A DNA stretch of 53,441 nucleotides, taken from the NCBI GenBank assembly GCA_005787345.1, contig SYBH01000097.1:1-53441 (forward strand). The letters run 5' to 3'. Of the stretch, positions 10,494 to 28,312 are shown one piece after another. Origin of the DNA: Actinomycetota bacterium. Lineage in GTDB: Bacteria > Actinomycetota > Acidimicrobiia > Acidimicrobiales > Acidimicrobilacustridaceae. Position 1 is the stretch's first letter. Every line of letters begins with the position of its first letter. The notes beneath the pieces are model-generated. The model searched no databases. It was not told the DNA's origin and worked only from the letters and a program-made list of their open reading frames with translations. The position numbers were made by a program, and so were the translations under genes.

Positions 10494-11852
10494 ATGTCCT
10501 CGCCTCGAGTTGTTAGCGTCGCGCCCGCTTCGCCGGCCGAGCGAGCTGGTTTAGCGCCCGGCGACCTCATCGTTCGCCTCAATGGCGAAGTTCCTCGCGA
10601 CATCATCGCCTATCGGCTCCTTGCCGATGAAGGTGAACTCTGCCTCGACATTGATAGAGGTGGGCTCCAGATTTCGCTCGAAGTAGAGAAACAACCTGGT
10701 GAATCGCTCGGGGCCGAGATTCACTCGGCACTGTTCGACCAGGTCAGAACCTGTGACAACCATTGCGAGTTCTGCTTCATTTATCAACTGCCGCCCAATC
10801 TGCGTGAATCCCTGTATCTCAAAGACGACGATTATCGACTTTCTTTTCTCTATGGCAATTTCACGACACTCACTCGGTTCACCGAACTAGATCTCGAACG
10901 AGTTGTCACGGAACGGATTTCGCCGCTGCATGTTTCCATCCATGCGACTGATCCAGATCTGCGTTCCTCAATGCTCCGGAACCGGAGGGGAGCTTCGAGC
11001 CTTCGTTGGCTTCGCGCGTTGCTCGACCACGGGATCGAGGTCCACGGTCAGGTAGTCGTATGTCCTGGCAGGAACGATGGTGCGTTTCTCGACGAGACGC
11101 TGGCAACCGTGCTCGATTCGTATTCGGAATTGGCAACCTTGAGCGTTGTGCCTCTTGGAGTGAGCGATTTCAATACCGAGCCAACGATGCGTCCGCACAC
11201 GCAGGCCGAAGCAAGTGACGTAATCGATGCTGTTCATGATTGGCAGGACATCTACCTTGCAACACTCGGACGGCGTATCGTCCACGCCGCTGACGAGTAC
11301 TACTTGCTGGCGAATCGACCTTTTCCCGATCACAGTGTTTACGAAGATTTTCCGATGCACGAAGATGGCATCGGAATGGCGCGCACCTTTGAGCGTGAGT
11401 TCATGGGTGAGACTGCAACGCCGACTGGCGTCGCAACAGGATTTTTTGCCTGGGTCGATGGAGCGCCGCCCGAGGGATATCGGGCGCCCCGGGGTGGGGG
11501 GGAGATCTCGATTCGACCTCGTCCCAATGCACCCGTTGCCATCATTACTGGCGGCTACGGAGCTCAGATCCTCGGTCCCTTGGTCCAAACACTCGACCGC
11601 GATGACATACGTGTCCTCAGTGTGGAGAATCTTTTCTTCGGCGGCAACACTGGTGTGGCAGGTCTGCTCACCGGGGCCGATCTGATTCGTGTGCTCTCAA
11701 CTGAGCCCGAAGGTCACCGCTACCTCTTGCCCGATGTGTGTCTGTCGCAGGGACGTTTCCTCGATGGTCTCACTCCTGACGATCTGCCCCGACAGGTCGA
11801 GATCCTCCCGACAGATGGCATAGCCCTCCGTCGGGCACTGGAGCCGAAATGA
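10494..11852 (+). CDS. PDZ-radical SAM-DUF512 protein
   Basis: A 452-residue three-part protein. A PDZ-like N-terminus carries SPAERAGLAPGDLIVRLNGE near residues 12-31. A radical SAM cluster CDNHCEFCF (CX3CX2C) lies near residues 87-95. A long DUF512-type C-terminus contains ADEYYLLANRP, YEDFPMHEDGIGM and a GGYGAQIL segment. The family is widespread and often sits beside der (engA), as here with a four-base overlap (ATGA). Its substrate is not established to my knowledge. The ATG at 10494 is chosen over upstream in-frame codons because the PDZ begins there and TAGCCT lies eight bases before it. Confidence 0.9.
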   Translation: MSSPRVVSVAPASPAERAGLAPGDLIVRLNGEVPRDIIAYRLLADEGELCLDIDRGGLQISLEVEKQPGESLGAEIHSALFDQVRTCDNHCEFCFIYQLPPNLRESLYLKDDDYRLSFLYGNFTTLTRFTELDLERVVTERISPLHVSIHATDPDLRSSMLRNRRGASSLRWLRALLDHGIEVHGQVVVCPGRNDGAFLDETLATVLDSYSELATLSVVPLGVSDFNTEPTMRPHTQAEASDVIDAVHDWQDIYLATLGRRIVHAADEYYLLANRPFPDHSVYEDFPMHEDGIGMARTFEREFMGETATPTGVATGFFAWVDGAPPEGYRAPRGGGEISIRPRPNAPVAIITGGYGAQILGPLVQTLDRDDIRVLSVENLFFGGNTGVAGLLTGADLIRVLSTEPEGHRYLLPDVCLSQGRFLDGLTPDDLPRQVEILPTDGIALRRALEPK

Positions 11853-13168
11853 GTACCCAACCCATCGACCTTCCGCTGGTTGCGGTCGTGGGCCGACCCA
11901 ATGTTGGCAAGTCGACACTCTTCAATCGAATTGTCGGTCGTCGAGAAGCAATTGTTGAAGAGAAGCCCGGCGTTACCCGTGATCGAAAAGAAGTTGTAGC
12001 CGAGTGGCAGGCACGCGAGTTTCGACTGGTCGACACCGGTGGATGGATGCCGGGAGGTGACTCACTCGACGAGAAGGTTTCAAGACAGAGCGAGAAGGCA
12101 ATTCTCGAAGCCGATGTCGTGCTCTTTGTTGTTGACGTCACGGTCGGCATCACTGAAGAAGACAGTCGTGTTGCTCAGATTCTCCGTCGGAATGGCCGCC
12201 CAGTTCTCCTTGTGGCCAACAAGGTCGATGACACAAATCGGGAATCTGCAATTTGGGACCTACTCGGACTGGGAGTTGGCAATCCATTCCCCGTAAGCGC
12301 TCTGCACGGACGAGGGACTGGCGATCTTCTCGAATCGCTCATGCTCGAATTTCCTCCCGAGCCCGAAGTAGTTGTCGACGAGGACGAAGTCGAAGCTGAC
12401 AAAATTTTCTCCGTCTCGATTGTCGGTAGACCCAATGTCGGCAAGTCAACACTCTTCAATCGTCTGATTGGCGATGAACGATCGGTAGTGCACGACATGC
12501 CGGGAACGACCAGAGACGCAGTGGACACCATTGTCGAGACGGAGGACGGCCCGATTCGCTTTGTCGATACAGCGGGAATGCGCCGTCGAAGCAAGGTCGA
12601 CGAATCGACCGAGTACTACTCGCTTGTACGTGCGCTTCAAGCGATCGATCGGTCCGATGTTGCGATGCTTGTTATCGATGCAACTGTAGGGGTGACGGCG
12701 CAGGATCAACGTCTGGCAGAGCGGATCGACGCCGCCGGCTGCCCTGTGGTTGTGCTGCTCAATAAGTGGGAACTTCTCGATGCCGATGCTCGTGATGATG
12801 TGGGTTACCAAATCAGTCAACGTCTGCATTTCATTGGGGAGTCACCTGTCCTGAAGATCAGCGCGCTTTCAGGGAAGGGTGTACATCGTTTGCTCCCCGC
12901 CCTCTCCGGAACCATCGAGGACTACCACCGCCGAGTACCAACTCGAAAGGTCAATCAGGTTCTGCGCGCTGCACAAGCCGCTCAACCGGGTCCACATGGA
13001 GCGAGGGTTCTCTACGCGACGCAGGGTGCGACGGATCCGCCGACATTCACACTGTTTGCAAACAAGGAAATCCCACCTTCCTATCTGCGATACCTCGAGC
13101 GCTCCCTTCGTGAAGCGTTCGACATGGGTGCAACACCGATCAAGATGCGAGTGCGGAAGCGGGACTGA
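11849..13168 (+). CDS. der: ribosome-associated GTPase Der (EngA)
   Basis: Tandem GTPase needed for 50S subunit maturation. The 439-residue product has two G domains. Each has GRPNVGKSTLFNR (residues about 11-23 and 192-204), a switch Thr, a DT(G/A)GM-type motif and NK(V/W)(D/E). A C-terminal KH-like domain ends near KMRVRKRD. Length is standard. The ATG overlaps the stop of the DUF512 gene, and the small zinc-ribbon gene begins five bases after the der stop. Confidence 0.97.
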   Translation: MSTQPIDLPLVAVVGRPNVGKSTLFNRIVGRREAIVEEKPGVTRDRKEVVAEWQAREFRLVDTGGWMPGGDSLDEKVSRQSEKAILEADVVLFVVDVTVGITEEDSRVAQILRRNGRPVLLVANKVDDTNRESAIWDLLGLGVGNPFPVSALHGRGTGDLLESLMLEFPPEPEVVVDEDEVEADKIFSVSIVGRPNVGKSTLFNRLIGDERSVVHDMPGTTRDAVDTIVETEDGPIRFVDTAGMRRRSKVDESTEYYSLVRALQAIDRSDVAMLVIDATVGVTAQDQRLAERIDAAGCPVVVLLNKWELLDADARDDVGYQISQRLHFIGESPVLKISALSGKGVHRLLPALSGTIEDYHRRVPTRKVNQVLRAAQAAQPGPHGARVLYATQGATDPPTFTLFANKEIPPSYLRYLERSLREAFDMGATPIKMRVRKRD

Positions 13169-25699: not shown

Positions 25700-25943
25700 G
25701 GGACCCCGCTCTGTTGTGGAACCTGAGAGTTTCGCTTCGAACGGCGACAGAACCCAAAGGAACCTGTTCGTCGTTGTCGACTTTCCCCGTCGGTGAGTCA
25801 CTCACGTGAGTAAGGGACTGCTCTCCAGAGTTGCCTACGCATGCGGTACATGAGCCTGAGAGTTTCCCGGGGGGTTGCTCCTTCGGCGCCAGTCAATGTC
25901 CGTGCGATCGTGGTGATCGCTGGTGCACTGAATGGTCTCTCCC
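25700..25943 (-). promoter_or_regulatory. tandem glycine riboswitch upstream of gcvP
   Basis: On the minus strand, aptamer 1 runs from GGGAGAG (25943 downwards) through GGCGCCGAAGGAGCAA and AAACTCTCAGG to CTGGAGAG near 25821. Aptamer 2 follows after a short linker with CACCGACGGGGAAAG, then GCGAAACTCTCAGG near 25722-25735, and ends near 25700. These are the hallmark conserved blocks of the glycine riboswitch. It lies 39 bases before the gcvP ATG. No obvious terminator stem with a T-run follows, so translational control is more likely. The 317-base gap is otherwise empty. Confidence 0.9.
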
Positions 25944-25978
25944 GCAAGCGGTGATCAGCGTCAGTTGTGGTTGTAAAC

Positions 25979-26785: not shown

Positions 26786-26865
26786 CGCAGCTCTCCATTC
26801 TTTTGGGGGAGTGACCCCGCTGCCGTAGGACGATCCTATGTCCGCAATGGCGTTCAATGAGGTCC

Positions 26866-26895
26866 TTGACTTCGCGTTCACTTGCTGTTTGTCTA
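26866..26895 (+). promoter_or_regulatory. candidate promoter of the cobalamin-regulated gene
   Basis: TTGACT at 26866-26871 is followed 17-19 bases later by a weak -10 around GTCTAA. It is placed just upstream of the riboswitch aptamer. Confidence 0.35.
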
Positions 26896-26899
26896 AGAG

Positions 26900-27025
26900 A
26901 ACACAACAAGTTGTTCTCGTGTGAGGGGAAGTTCGGTGAGAATCCGGCGCTGTCCCGCAACCGTGTGAGTGTTGTTCCCCGGGTGAAAGCCAGAGAGGCA
27001 ACAGTCGAGTCGGATCACCGAACCC
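26900..27025 (+). promoter_or_regulatory. cobalamin riboswitch
   Basis: The plus strand has GGGGAAG followed by GGTGAGAATCCGGCGCTG and CCCGCAACCGTGTGAG, the central conserved core of the cobalamin aptamer. GTGAAAGCCAGAGAGGC comes next, and a B12-box-like AGTCGGATCACCGAAC ends near 27023. GTTCGGTGA (26931-26939) is exactly complementary to TCACCGAAC (27015-27023). A further stem GGCCGAC...GTCGGTC (27103-27127) sits just before the ribosome site of the downstream gene and may be the expression platform. This fills the 357-base gap between the divergent genes. Confidence 0.88.
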
Positions 27026-27142
27026 GAGAACGAAGCTCATCATCACCGTCGTGGAATGCGGTGTCGAGCCTCGAATTCTTGCGCCATTTGGTGTTCGACG
27101 AGGGCCGACATTGTTCAAGCGTCGGTCCAAACAAAGGACACC

Positions 27143-28312
27143 ATGAATACATCCTCAACTCGAGTTTCGGCTCTCATCCGTCGCGGAACGGTTGCAGTGG
27201 TCGTTGCGCTCGTAGCGATTCTCGGTTCAACGAACATTTCAGCGTCAGCGGTTTCGACGCCAGAGTCATCATTGACTTCTGCCTGGTTGGCCTCGCAGGT
27301 TGGACCTACCGGAGAAGTCAACATCAGTGGATCGACGCAGTCGGTCGTCACCCAAACGATGTACGTCGCTCAGGGTCTTGGCGCGACGGGGGAGCATCGT
27401 GACGCTCTGGATCGTGCGATGTCATTTCTCTCGCTAGGTACAAGCATCGATGAGTGGGTCACAAACGATGGAAGTGGTGGCACCGTTGCTCCGCCCGGTG
27501 CTGACCTGCCTGAGCGTCTGGCCTCGTTGATTCTGCTTGCCAACACCACTGGTAGTAACCCACGGTCATTTGGAGCACCTGCAGTGAACCTTGTAGCGCG
27601 GGCCCAAGCCATGTATGGGCTGGTGGTTCCCGGCTTTTACGGTTATCAAGAGCCGTGGTCTTCGGTTCAAGATCAATCATTGATGGTGATCGCGTTGCAA
27701 GCAGTGGGCGCCACACCGCCAGCAGCGGCGATCGATTGGATCGTCGAACAGCAGTGCATGGGCGGGACGACTCCGCAAAGTTCGCTAGGGGGATGGCAAG
27801 CATCTCGAGTGACTGTCGGAAACGTGCTTCAAGATTGCGGTGCACCTGATCCGTTGAGTTATTCAGGAGCTGACACAAACTCGACAGCGTTTGCCATCCA
27901 AGCACTTCAGTACCTCGGTCGGACCGCATCGGTCGCAGCCGCAGCAACCTTCTTACAGAGTGCGCAGGCGACGAGCGGTCCGAATACCGGGGGCTTCCCG
28001 TGGTTTTCTGGGGGAGCCGTTGATGCAAACTCAACTGCGCTTGTTCTGCAAGCGATCACAGCGATGGGGCAAAGTCCTTCGATGTGGTCGGTTGCGGGCG
28101 CAACTCCGCTTGCGGTTCTTCAGTCCTTCCAACTGTTGTCACCAGCGGGCGATGCTGGTTCACTCTTTGCGAGTTGGAACCCAGGCGTGCCTGATTTGCT
28201 GGCTTCCTATCAGGGGGCGTGGGGACTGACCCTCACCGCGTTCCCATTCCCGGTACTTGCCGAGCGCACTGCGATCATCAATCCGATCGCTGCTCCAGCG
28301 TTTACTGGTTGA
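27143..28312 (+). CDS. secreted alpha/alpha-toroid protein under cobalamin control (candidate cobalamin-binding)
   Basis: A 389-residue exported protein. The signal peptide has Arg residues near 7-14, a hydrophobic core (VAVVVALVAILG) and an ASA cleavage site at 34-36. The mature part is a series of helical repeats of the terpenoid-cyclase/prenyltransferase toroid type. Repeated segments include QDQSLMVIALQAVG, NSTAFAIQALQYLG and NSTALVLQAITAMG. Two Cys (205 and 232) may form a disulfide. Eukaryotic intrinsic factor and transcobalamin use the same toroid for their alpha domain; the beta (DUF4430-like) domain is absent here. With the cobalamin riboswitch directly upstream, cobalamin capture is a reasonable inference but unproven. 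AAAGGA precedes the ATG. Confidence 0.75.
   Translation: MNTSSTRVSALIRRGTVAVVVALVAILGSTNISASAVSTPESSLTSAWLASQVGPTGEVNISGSTQSVVTQTMYVAQGLGATGEHRDALDRAMSFLSLGTSIDEWVTNDGSGGTVAPPGADLPERLASLILLANTTGSNPRSFGAPAVNLVARAQAMYGLVVPGFYGYQEPWSSVQDQSLMVIALQAVGATPPAAAIDWIVEQQCMGGTTPQSSLGGWQASRVTVGNVLQDCGAPDPLSYSGADTNSTAFAIQALQYLGRTASVAAAATFLQSAQATSGPNTGGFPWFSGGAVDANSTALVLQAITAMGQSPSMWSVAGATPLAVLQSFQLLSPAGDAGSLFASWNPGVPDLLASYQGAWGLTLTAFPFPVLAERTAIINPIAAPAFTG

Follow-up and report, generated by a model that had tools for sequence, protein, structure and literature searches.

What might a cobalamin riboswitch be doing in front of a solitary gene for an exported helical protein? The question is raised by a gene at 27143..28312 on the forward strand of a 53,441 nt contig from a member of the Acidimicrobiia (SYBH01000097.1; this whole stretch is referred to as the window), part of a genome assembly of 2.29 Mb that is 82% complete. 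The gene probably encodes the toroid half, here named alpha, of a split corrinoid receptor of the transcobalamin and intrinsic factor type; the cap half, beta, is encoded elsewhere, the two being unlinked in this organism's own lineage. The evidence obtained by computation consists of riboswitches, two protein folds (that of the cap being modelled on a relative), the co-occurrence, adjacency and, in two cases, fusion of the halves, an energy-coupling factor (ECF)-type ATPase, proteins with B12-binding domains in the same genome and the absence of two corrin-ring genes from the genus.

The aptamer, of the adenosylcobalamin (AdoCbl) class, occupies 26900..27071 on the same strand, as delineated by the Rfam models RF01482 and RF00174 and an alignment of leaders. 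A permissive scan of positions 26800-27200 matched RF01482 over its full length (model 1-149 of 149) at 44.2 bits (E 5e-7), which supports the aptamer proposed in the initial annotation, though the score is below the gathering score of 50. RF00174 gave 28.3 bits against a gathering score of 31.5 (E 2.2e-5 in the 2.29 Mb genome, where this is one of two matches), and a scan of the whole window at gathering scores did not list the riboswitch. These scores are treated here as cut-offs for listing, not as defining. When the loci of 16 relatives were scanned at gathering scores, a toroid leader from the same family passed with the AdoCbl model (L009, 52.6 bits), five others passed the Cobalamin cut-off (L084, L037, L013, L075 and L010), and three cap-gene leaders were above threshold (L019, L020 and a second site in L075). 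Below it were five toroid loci, comprising the closest scanned relatives of the window (L031, L032, L033 and L039) and L038, which starts at a contig edge, as well as three cap loci (L018, L022 and L026); the core motif is still found in all of these sub-threshold loci listed here other than L026. Across 16 leaders, namely that of the window and 15 from related toroid and cap genes, the core columns are invariant, and RNAalifold finds 18 consensus pairs, two of which are changed on both sides, representing slight covariation (term -1.14). The single-strand fold of the window leader is not decisive (z -2.26; 2/200 shuffles equally good).

Between the aptamer and the start codon lies a short inverted repeat, GUCC-7-GGAC (27125..27139, forward strand), which covers the ribosome-binding region and is a possible translational expression platform. 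Its letters are present in 6/6 leaders, and the pairing forms in the minimum-energy fold of three of these (L031, L032 and L033); the minimum-energy fold of the window leader is without it. No terminator-like site was found. There is a weak indication that the riboswitch controls translation, in which the repeat may play a part.

The open reading frame encodes 389 aa (stop included), beginning with a hydrophobic stretch at residues about 8-38 (27164..27256), identified by a hydropathy scan as a probable signal peptide, and continuing with a toroid domain at residues about 37-374 (27251..28264), as ranged by the AlphaFold2 model and VIA-align. The model is an alpha/alpha toroid (predicted local distance difference test score 90.4, predicted template modelling score 0.87), and structural comparison of it by VIA-align agrees. 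Hence the description as an exported helical toroid, of the type seen in the alpha domain of intrinsic factor, stands. The protein matches SCO2321_fam with E 1.7e-24, but at 86.5 bits of a 300 cut-off it is a relative and is not filed as a member. It has no match to PF01122 (Cobalamin_bind), which 2/57 relatives match (best E 0.0025); phmmer against the PDB gave one weak match only, to a ribosomal protein (E 0.79), and a profile search with alpha to E 0.1 included neither transcobalamin nor intrinsic factor among its matches. The strongest structural and profile similarities are to squalene-hopene and drimenyl diphosphate cyclases. Because the toroid matches are led by cyclases, the fold alone is not taken as proof of B12 binding, and the protein is regarded as a candidate B12 binder.

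Conservation was assessed in an alignment of 57 of 60 alpha rows (the window and 59 named loci, with L036, L079 and L082 omitted). The two cysteines pointed out initially are present, Cys205 (27755..27757) and Cys232 (27836..27838); as both columns are Cys in 36/57 relatives and in 11/11 rows of a smaller alignment, a disulfide between them is plausible, and its assignment putative. Stronger conservation is seen in the motif D244-T-N-S-T-A (27872..27889; D244 56/57, N246 54/57, T248 55/57) and in a second, D294-A-N-S-T-A (28022..28039), in which D294, N296, S297, T298 and A299 are each found in 57/57. We take the former to resemble the DXDD(TA) motif of terpene cyclases, an equivalence drawn by eye, the positions not being superposed. 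The identification of alpha as a terpene cyclase was rejected, as DXDD itself is not found and the corresponding D-x-N-x-T has Asn at N246 and N296. Toroid relatives occur in 92/296 sampled genomes of the phylum, a count in which weak matches may represent different toroids.

The genome's second cobalamin riboswitch match lies on a different contig, in the leader C138:63598-63820, before the gene for an exported cap-type protein, beta, which is followed in order by ECF-type T-, ATPase- and S-position genes. Beta matches SCO2322_fam with E 5.8e-13, although at 49.4 bits it is below the cut-off of 85; it has no Pfam match up to E 10, DUF4430 (PF14478) included, and a profile-profile comparison with DUF4430 gives E 1.7e-4 and a probability of 49%. 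The cap fold was determined not on this protein but on its relative from L042, the model of which has the beta domains of intrinsic factor, haptocorrin and transcobalamin as structural matches 1-14. Of two beta profiles, one matched a photosystem I subunit along a short segment (best E 0.0043), judged to be chance similarity, and the other, built from 42 of 43 beta stretches (L075 omitted), gave two matches only (E 0.88). The two-domain ATPase exceeds the cut-off of the cbiO model TIGR01166 (230 bits; cut-off 211.8) and is under that of ECF_ATPase_2 (302.5; cut-off 330), the T protein resembles CbiQ at 21 bits, below the cut-off of 25, and the S-position protein has no Pfam or NCBIfam match. 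The window itself, searched with the cap and three ECF-protein profiles or queries, contains no cap and no ECF permease, its sole match being a weak one to an ATPase at 11780-13165 (E 5.6e-5). The earlier remark that no cobalamin transporter is nearby is therefore correct for the window but does not extend to the genome, which carries cap and importer genes on another contig.

That the two halves belong together is indicated by their arrangement in relatives. A cap gene lies within 1.5 kb downstream of the toroid gene in 41/59 named loci, 36 of which have ECF-type frames further downstream; these linked loci include nine of ten from Streptomyces, as well as those of Herpetosiphon and other Chloroflexota. 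In two genomes of the same class, toroid and then cap are fused in one frame, of 525 residues in G111 (L015, contig C34, 985-2559, reverse strand) and 570 residues in G034 (L140:1294-3003). Profiles also mark a toroid-cap fusion in a Chloroflexi metagenome-assembled genome (L079:7356-10025), and extra toroid- or cap-like frames are found beside this and the G111 fusion. Profile searches of 198 class genomes, using one alpha place per genome, found the toroid in 37, the cap in 49 and both in 34 (p 4.5e-23, the genomes being related), with linkage in 19. Across the phylum sample Pfam DUF4430 occurs in 51/296 genomes, 35 of which carry the toroid as well, at a distance of no more than 6 kb in 31; these phylum counts are based on at least one place per matching genome, some secondary places being omitted. 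With a cap gene in the same genome, under its own cobalamin riboswitch at the head of an ECF-type operon, a cap adjoining the toroid in most relatives and two fusions within the class, the original interpretation of alpha as a cap-less minimal binder was rejected.

The genus also appears to need the vitamin. Four B12-binding-domain matches are found in the organism's own genome. One protein there (C155:713-1561) combines HTH_17, B12-binding_2 and B12-binding domains, a layout we take to be CarH/LitR-like, and G023 has, near its cap-ECF operon, a frame of equal length that matches a B12-binding domain (L185:3245-4093). Searches for the corrin-ring genes CbiJ and CbiC found neither in the organism's own genome (82% complete), G023 (98%), G145 (99%) or G083 (97%), and both in G035. 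FecCD permeases above the cut-off are present in G035 and G083, and in none of the three genus members. Together, the missing CbiJ and CbiC, the pattern of FecCD and the B12-binding-domain matches suggest that the genus depends on B12 from outside, and the toroid-cap-ECF system looks to be the only import candidate found in it, BacA not having been searched for.

In the lineage of the window the toroid gene stands alone with its own riboswitch, the cap being elsewhere in this genome and in G023, G145, G035 and G083. The 14 unlinked rows cluster on the toroid tree, requiring three changes as against 12.8 in shuffles. An arrangement that looks intermediate is seen in L075:2974-9218, where toroid and cap are on opposite strands, flanking CbiQ-, ATPase- and S-like frames, and each has its own cobalamin riboswitch above the cut-off. 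The record of L075 is titled Acidobacteria; its toroid groups with those of the Acidimicrobiia. Another record, L035 (CAMAYJ010000080.1), is titled Bifidobacterium breve and contains a toroid of the window lineage, hence the title looks wrong. Close to the toroid gene in the window is a tandem glycine riboswitch before gcvP (25704-25954, reverse strand; 62.4 and 42.0 bits), and one is likewise found near the toroid gene in L009, L031, L032, L033, L037, L039 and L084.

Alpha terminates in the sequence PAFTG (28295..28309), an instance of a general C-terminal motif, PxFTG-COOH, which is frequent at the very end of toroid proteins from this class. Among 8708 frames of 80 codons or more in the loci analysed, overlapping loci being counted repeatedly, 18 distinct (F/Y)TG ends were found, 16 of which belong to toroids by profile, one (L028) to a frame with a six-frame toroid match only and one (L066) to an unrelated protein. 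A crude scan of the 59 named toroids assigned a PxFTG end to 10, a C-terminal hydrophobic helix to 20, LPxTG to four and none of these to 25; the hydropathy scan shows no C-terminal hydrophobic helix on the window protein. In a 640 kb sample of G083, PxFTG ends occur in 5/4187 frames, compared with 0.07 expected. All five proteins (L233:16085-19360, L245:13762-15294, L273:2857-3429, L273:14804-15949 and L273:16665-17804) look secreted by eye, the motif often following Pro/Thr-rich stretches, and one looks peptidase-like. The motif may be a retention, sorting or docking tag, possibly undescribed; we know of no such tag in the literature.

A working scheme can be proposed from these features. 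Scarcity of cobalamin would open both riboswitches and so allow the synthesis of alpha and beta, each controlled by a switch of its own, with that on alpha probably acting at the level of translation. Alpha would be exported and its toroid cavity offered to cobalamin as the ligand; beta, also exported and presumably held by a C-terminal membrane helix, would contact alpha and cap the bound cobalamin as in transcobalamin. Beta may then hand the cobalamin over to the ECF-type transporter encoded behind it, comprising the CbiQ-like T protein, the double ATPase and the S-position membrane protein. A more elaborate version, possible yet doubtful, is a two-gene, separately switched intrinsic factor, in which an exported soluble PxFTG-tagged toroid picks up extracellular B12 and docks on an importer consisting of the membrane-held cap and the ECF components, the fused animal proteins and the bacterial pair being two outcomes of one ancestral alpha/beta system.

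Several observations weigh against the split receptor. A regular-expression cobalamin core is found upstream of the toroid in 30/53 loci that have 600 bases or more of upstream sequence available, and of ten linked loci scanned, six have an Rfam-level cobalamin match upstream of alpha (L047, L049, L055, L059, L060 and L067) and four do not (L042, L044, L052 and L066). In the class set 15/49 beta genomes lack an alpha match, 3/37 alpha genomes lack beta (G100, G135 and G177), and 15/34 genomes with both show no linkage inside 2.5 kb of the best alpha place. No beta lies within 1.5 kb downstream of the toroid in 18/59 named loci: eleven, grouped as window-like for this reason (L030-L039 and L084), and L050 (at a contig end), L070, L071, L075 (beta beyond the ECF genes), L080, L083 and L087. 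The unlinked state takes three changes on the alpha tree, not one, and a single change is seen in 0/200 bootstrap trees. PxFTG tails are found in 0/1159 frames of a G023 sample and 0/1087 of a G035 sample, both smaller than that of G083.

Alpha might instead be released as a free, haptocorrin-like carrier or sequestering protein for extracellular B12, with the cap and ECF operon working separately. Its separation from beta and the ECF genes, its own riboswitch and its lack of a C-terminal hydrophobic helix would all fit; however, alpha adjoins or is fused with beta in relatives, 24/59 other alphas carry a C-terminal hydrophobic helix or LPxTG in the crude scan, and the common PxFTG tail may point to a retained rather than a released protein, making a free carrier unlikely in our view. 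The ligand could also be a precursor or a metal, such as cobinamide or cobalt, handled by an ECF system of the cobalt type whose binding protein is unusual. The T protein is indeed CbiQ-like, the ATPase matches cbiO-type models, and cobalt transporters of other bacteria are also under cobalamin riboswitches, according to a passage in PMC3766115. Yet the beta fold matches corrinoid-binding caps first, and cobalt would be of little use to a genus in which neither CbiJ nor CbiC was found; this alternative we consider quite improbable.

Two further explanations appear most improbable. A secreted enzyme, of terpene cyclase or prenyltransferase-like type and B12-regulated by chance, would account for the similarity to cyclases, but hardly for the association with a transcobalamin-type cap and with ECF genes or for secretion, and the expected catalytic acid is missing, since the DXDD-like position reads D-x-N-x-T (Asn in 54/57 and 57/57 for the two motifs). 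It is equally hard to credit that alpha is a decaying leftover, split from its operon and no longer used: although the gene is unlinked in the lineage, and the toroid frame of the close relative G023 is cut short by a single TGA close to its C-terminus, alpha is intact in the window, and relatives have kept the riboswitch core, the position near the glycine riboswitch and the C-terminal tail.

As half of a probable split corrinoid receptor, alpha together with beta gains a testable function in B12 uptake in place of labels without one, such as 'SCO2321 family membrane protein'. The cap fold links the pair to the human B12 carriers, and the two-chain proteins offer a way to test the idea, put forward in 2007, that transcobalamin came to animals from bacteria. 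The halves of this receptor sit at separate loci under separate riboswitches.

To our knowledge, no extracellular binding protein is part of the ECF-CbrT cobalamin transporter. That transporter is likewise an ECF-type B12 importer (PMC5997447). Alpha and beta share with animal intrinsic factor, transcobalamin and haptocorrin the toroid and beta-grasp cap fold types and secretion; in transcobalamin the two domains sandwich B12 (PMC1796856). Unlike the animal proteins, the halves are encoded by two genes on different contigs instead of forming one chain, identity in the toroid alignment is 13%, and hand-over would be to an ECF importer. SCO2321_fam and SCO2322_fam, named by NCBIfam without function, are matched by alpha and beta below their curated cut-offs. 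Herpetosiphon aurantiacus is described in PMC3766115 as lacking B12 synthesis and having a riboswitch-regulated B12 transporter; its genus has toroid, cap and CbiQ-like frames in two loci (L043 and L046).

The nearest precedent is that of Burroughs et al. 2007 (PMC1796856), the relevant passages of which describe SLBB proteins, often fused to toroids and encoded with CbiO/CbiQ, as predicted B12 scavengers, and predict the acquisition of transcobalamin by animals from bacteria. The cases given there come from low-GC Gram-positives, planctomycetes and some euryarchaea; they include fusions carrying the toroid at either the N- or the C-terminus, SLBB proteins that stand alone, and operons encoding a pair of them. 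Common to both are the two domain types, the company of CbiO/CbiQ and the proposed role. Those passages contain no separate toroid partner and do not mention riboswitches, whereas here alpha and beta are separate genes in Actinomycetota and Chloroflexota, and form two unlinked riboswitch units in the window lineage. No description of a split toroid-cap pair was recognised among the matches listed from the openly licensed literature. Fused toroid and cap B12 scavengers were already predicted in 2007, and what is new is the split, separately switched form.
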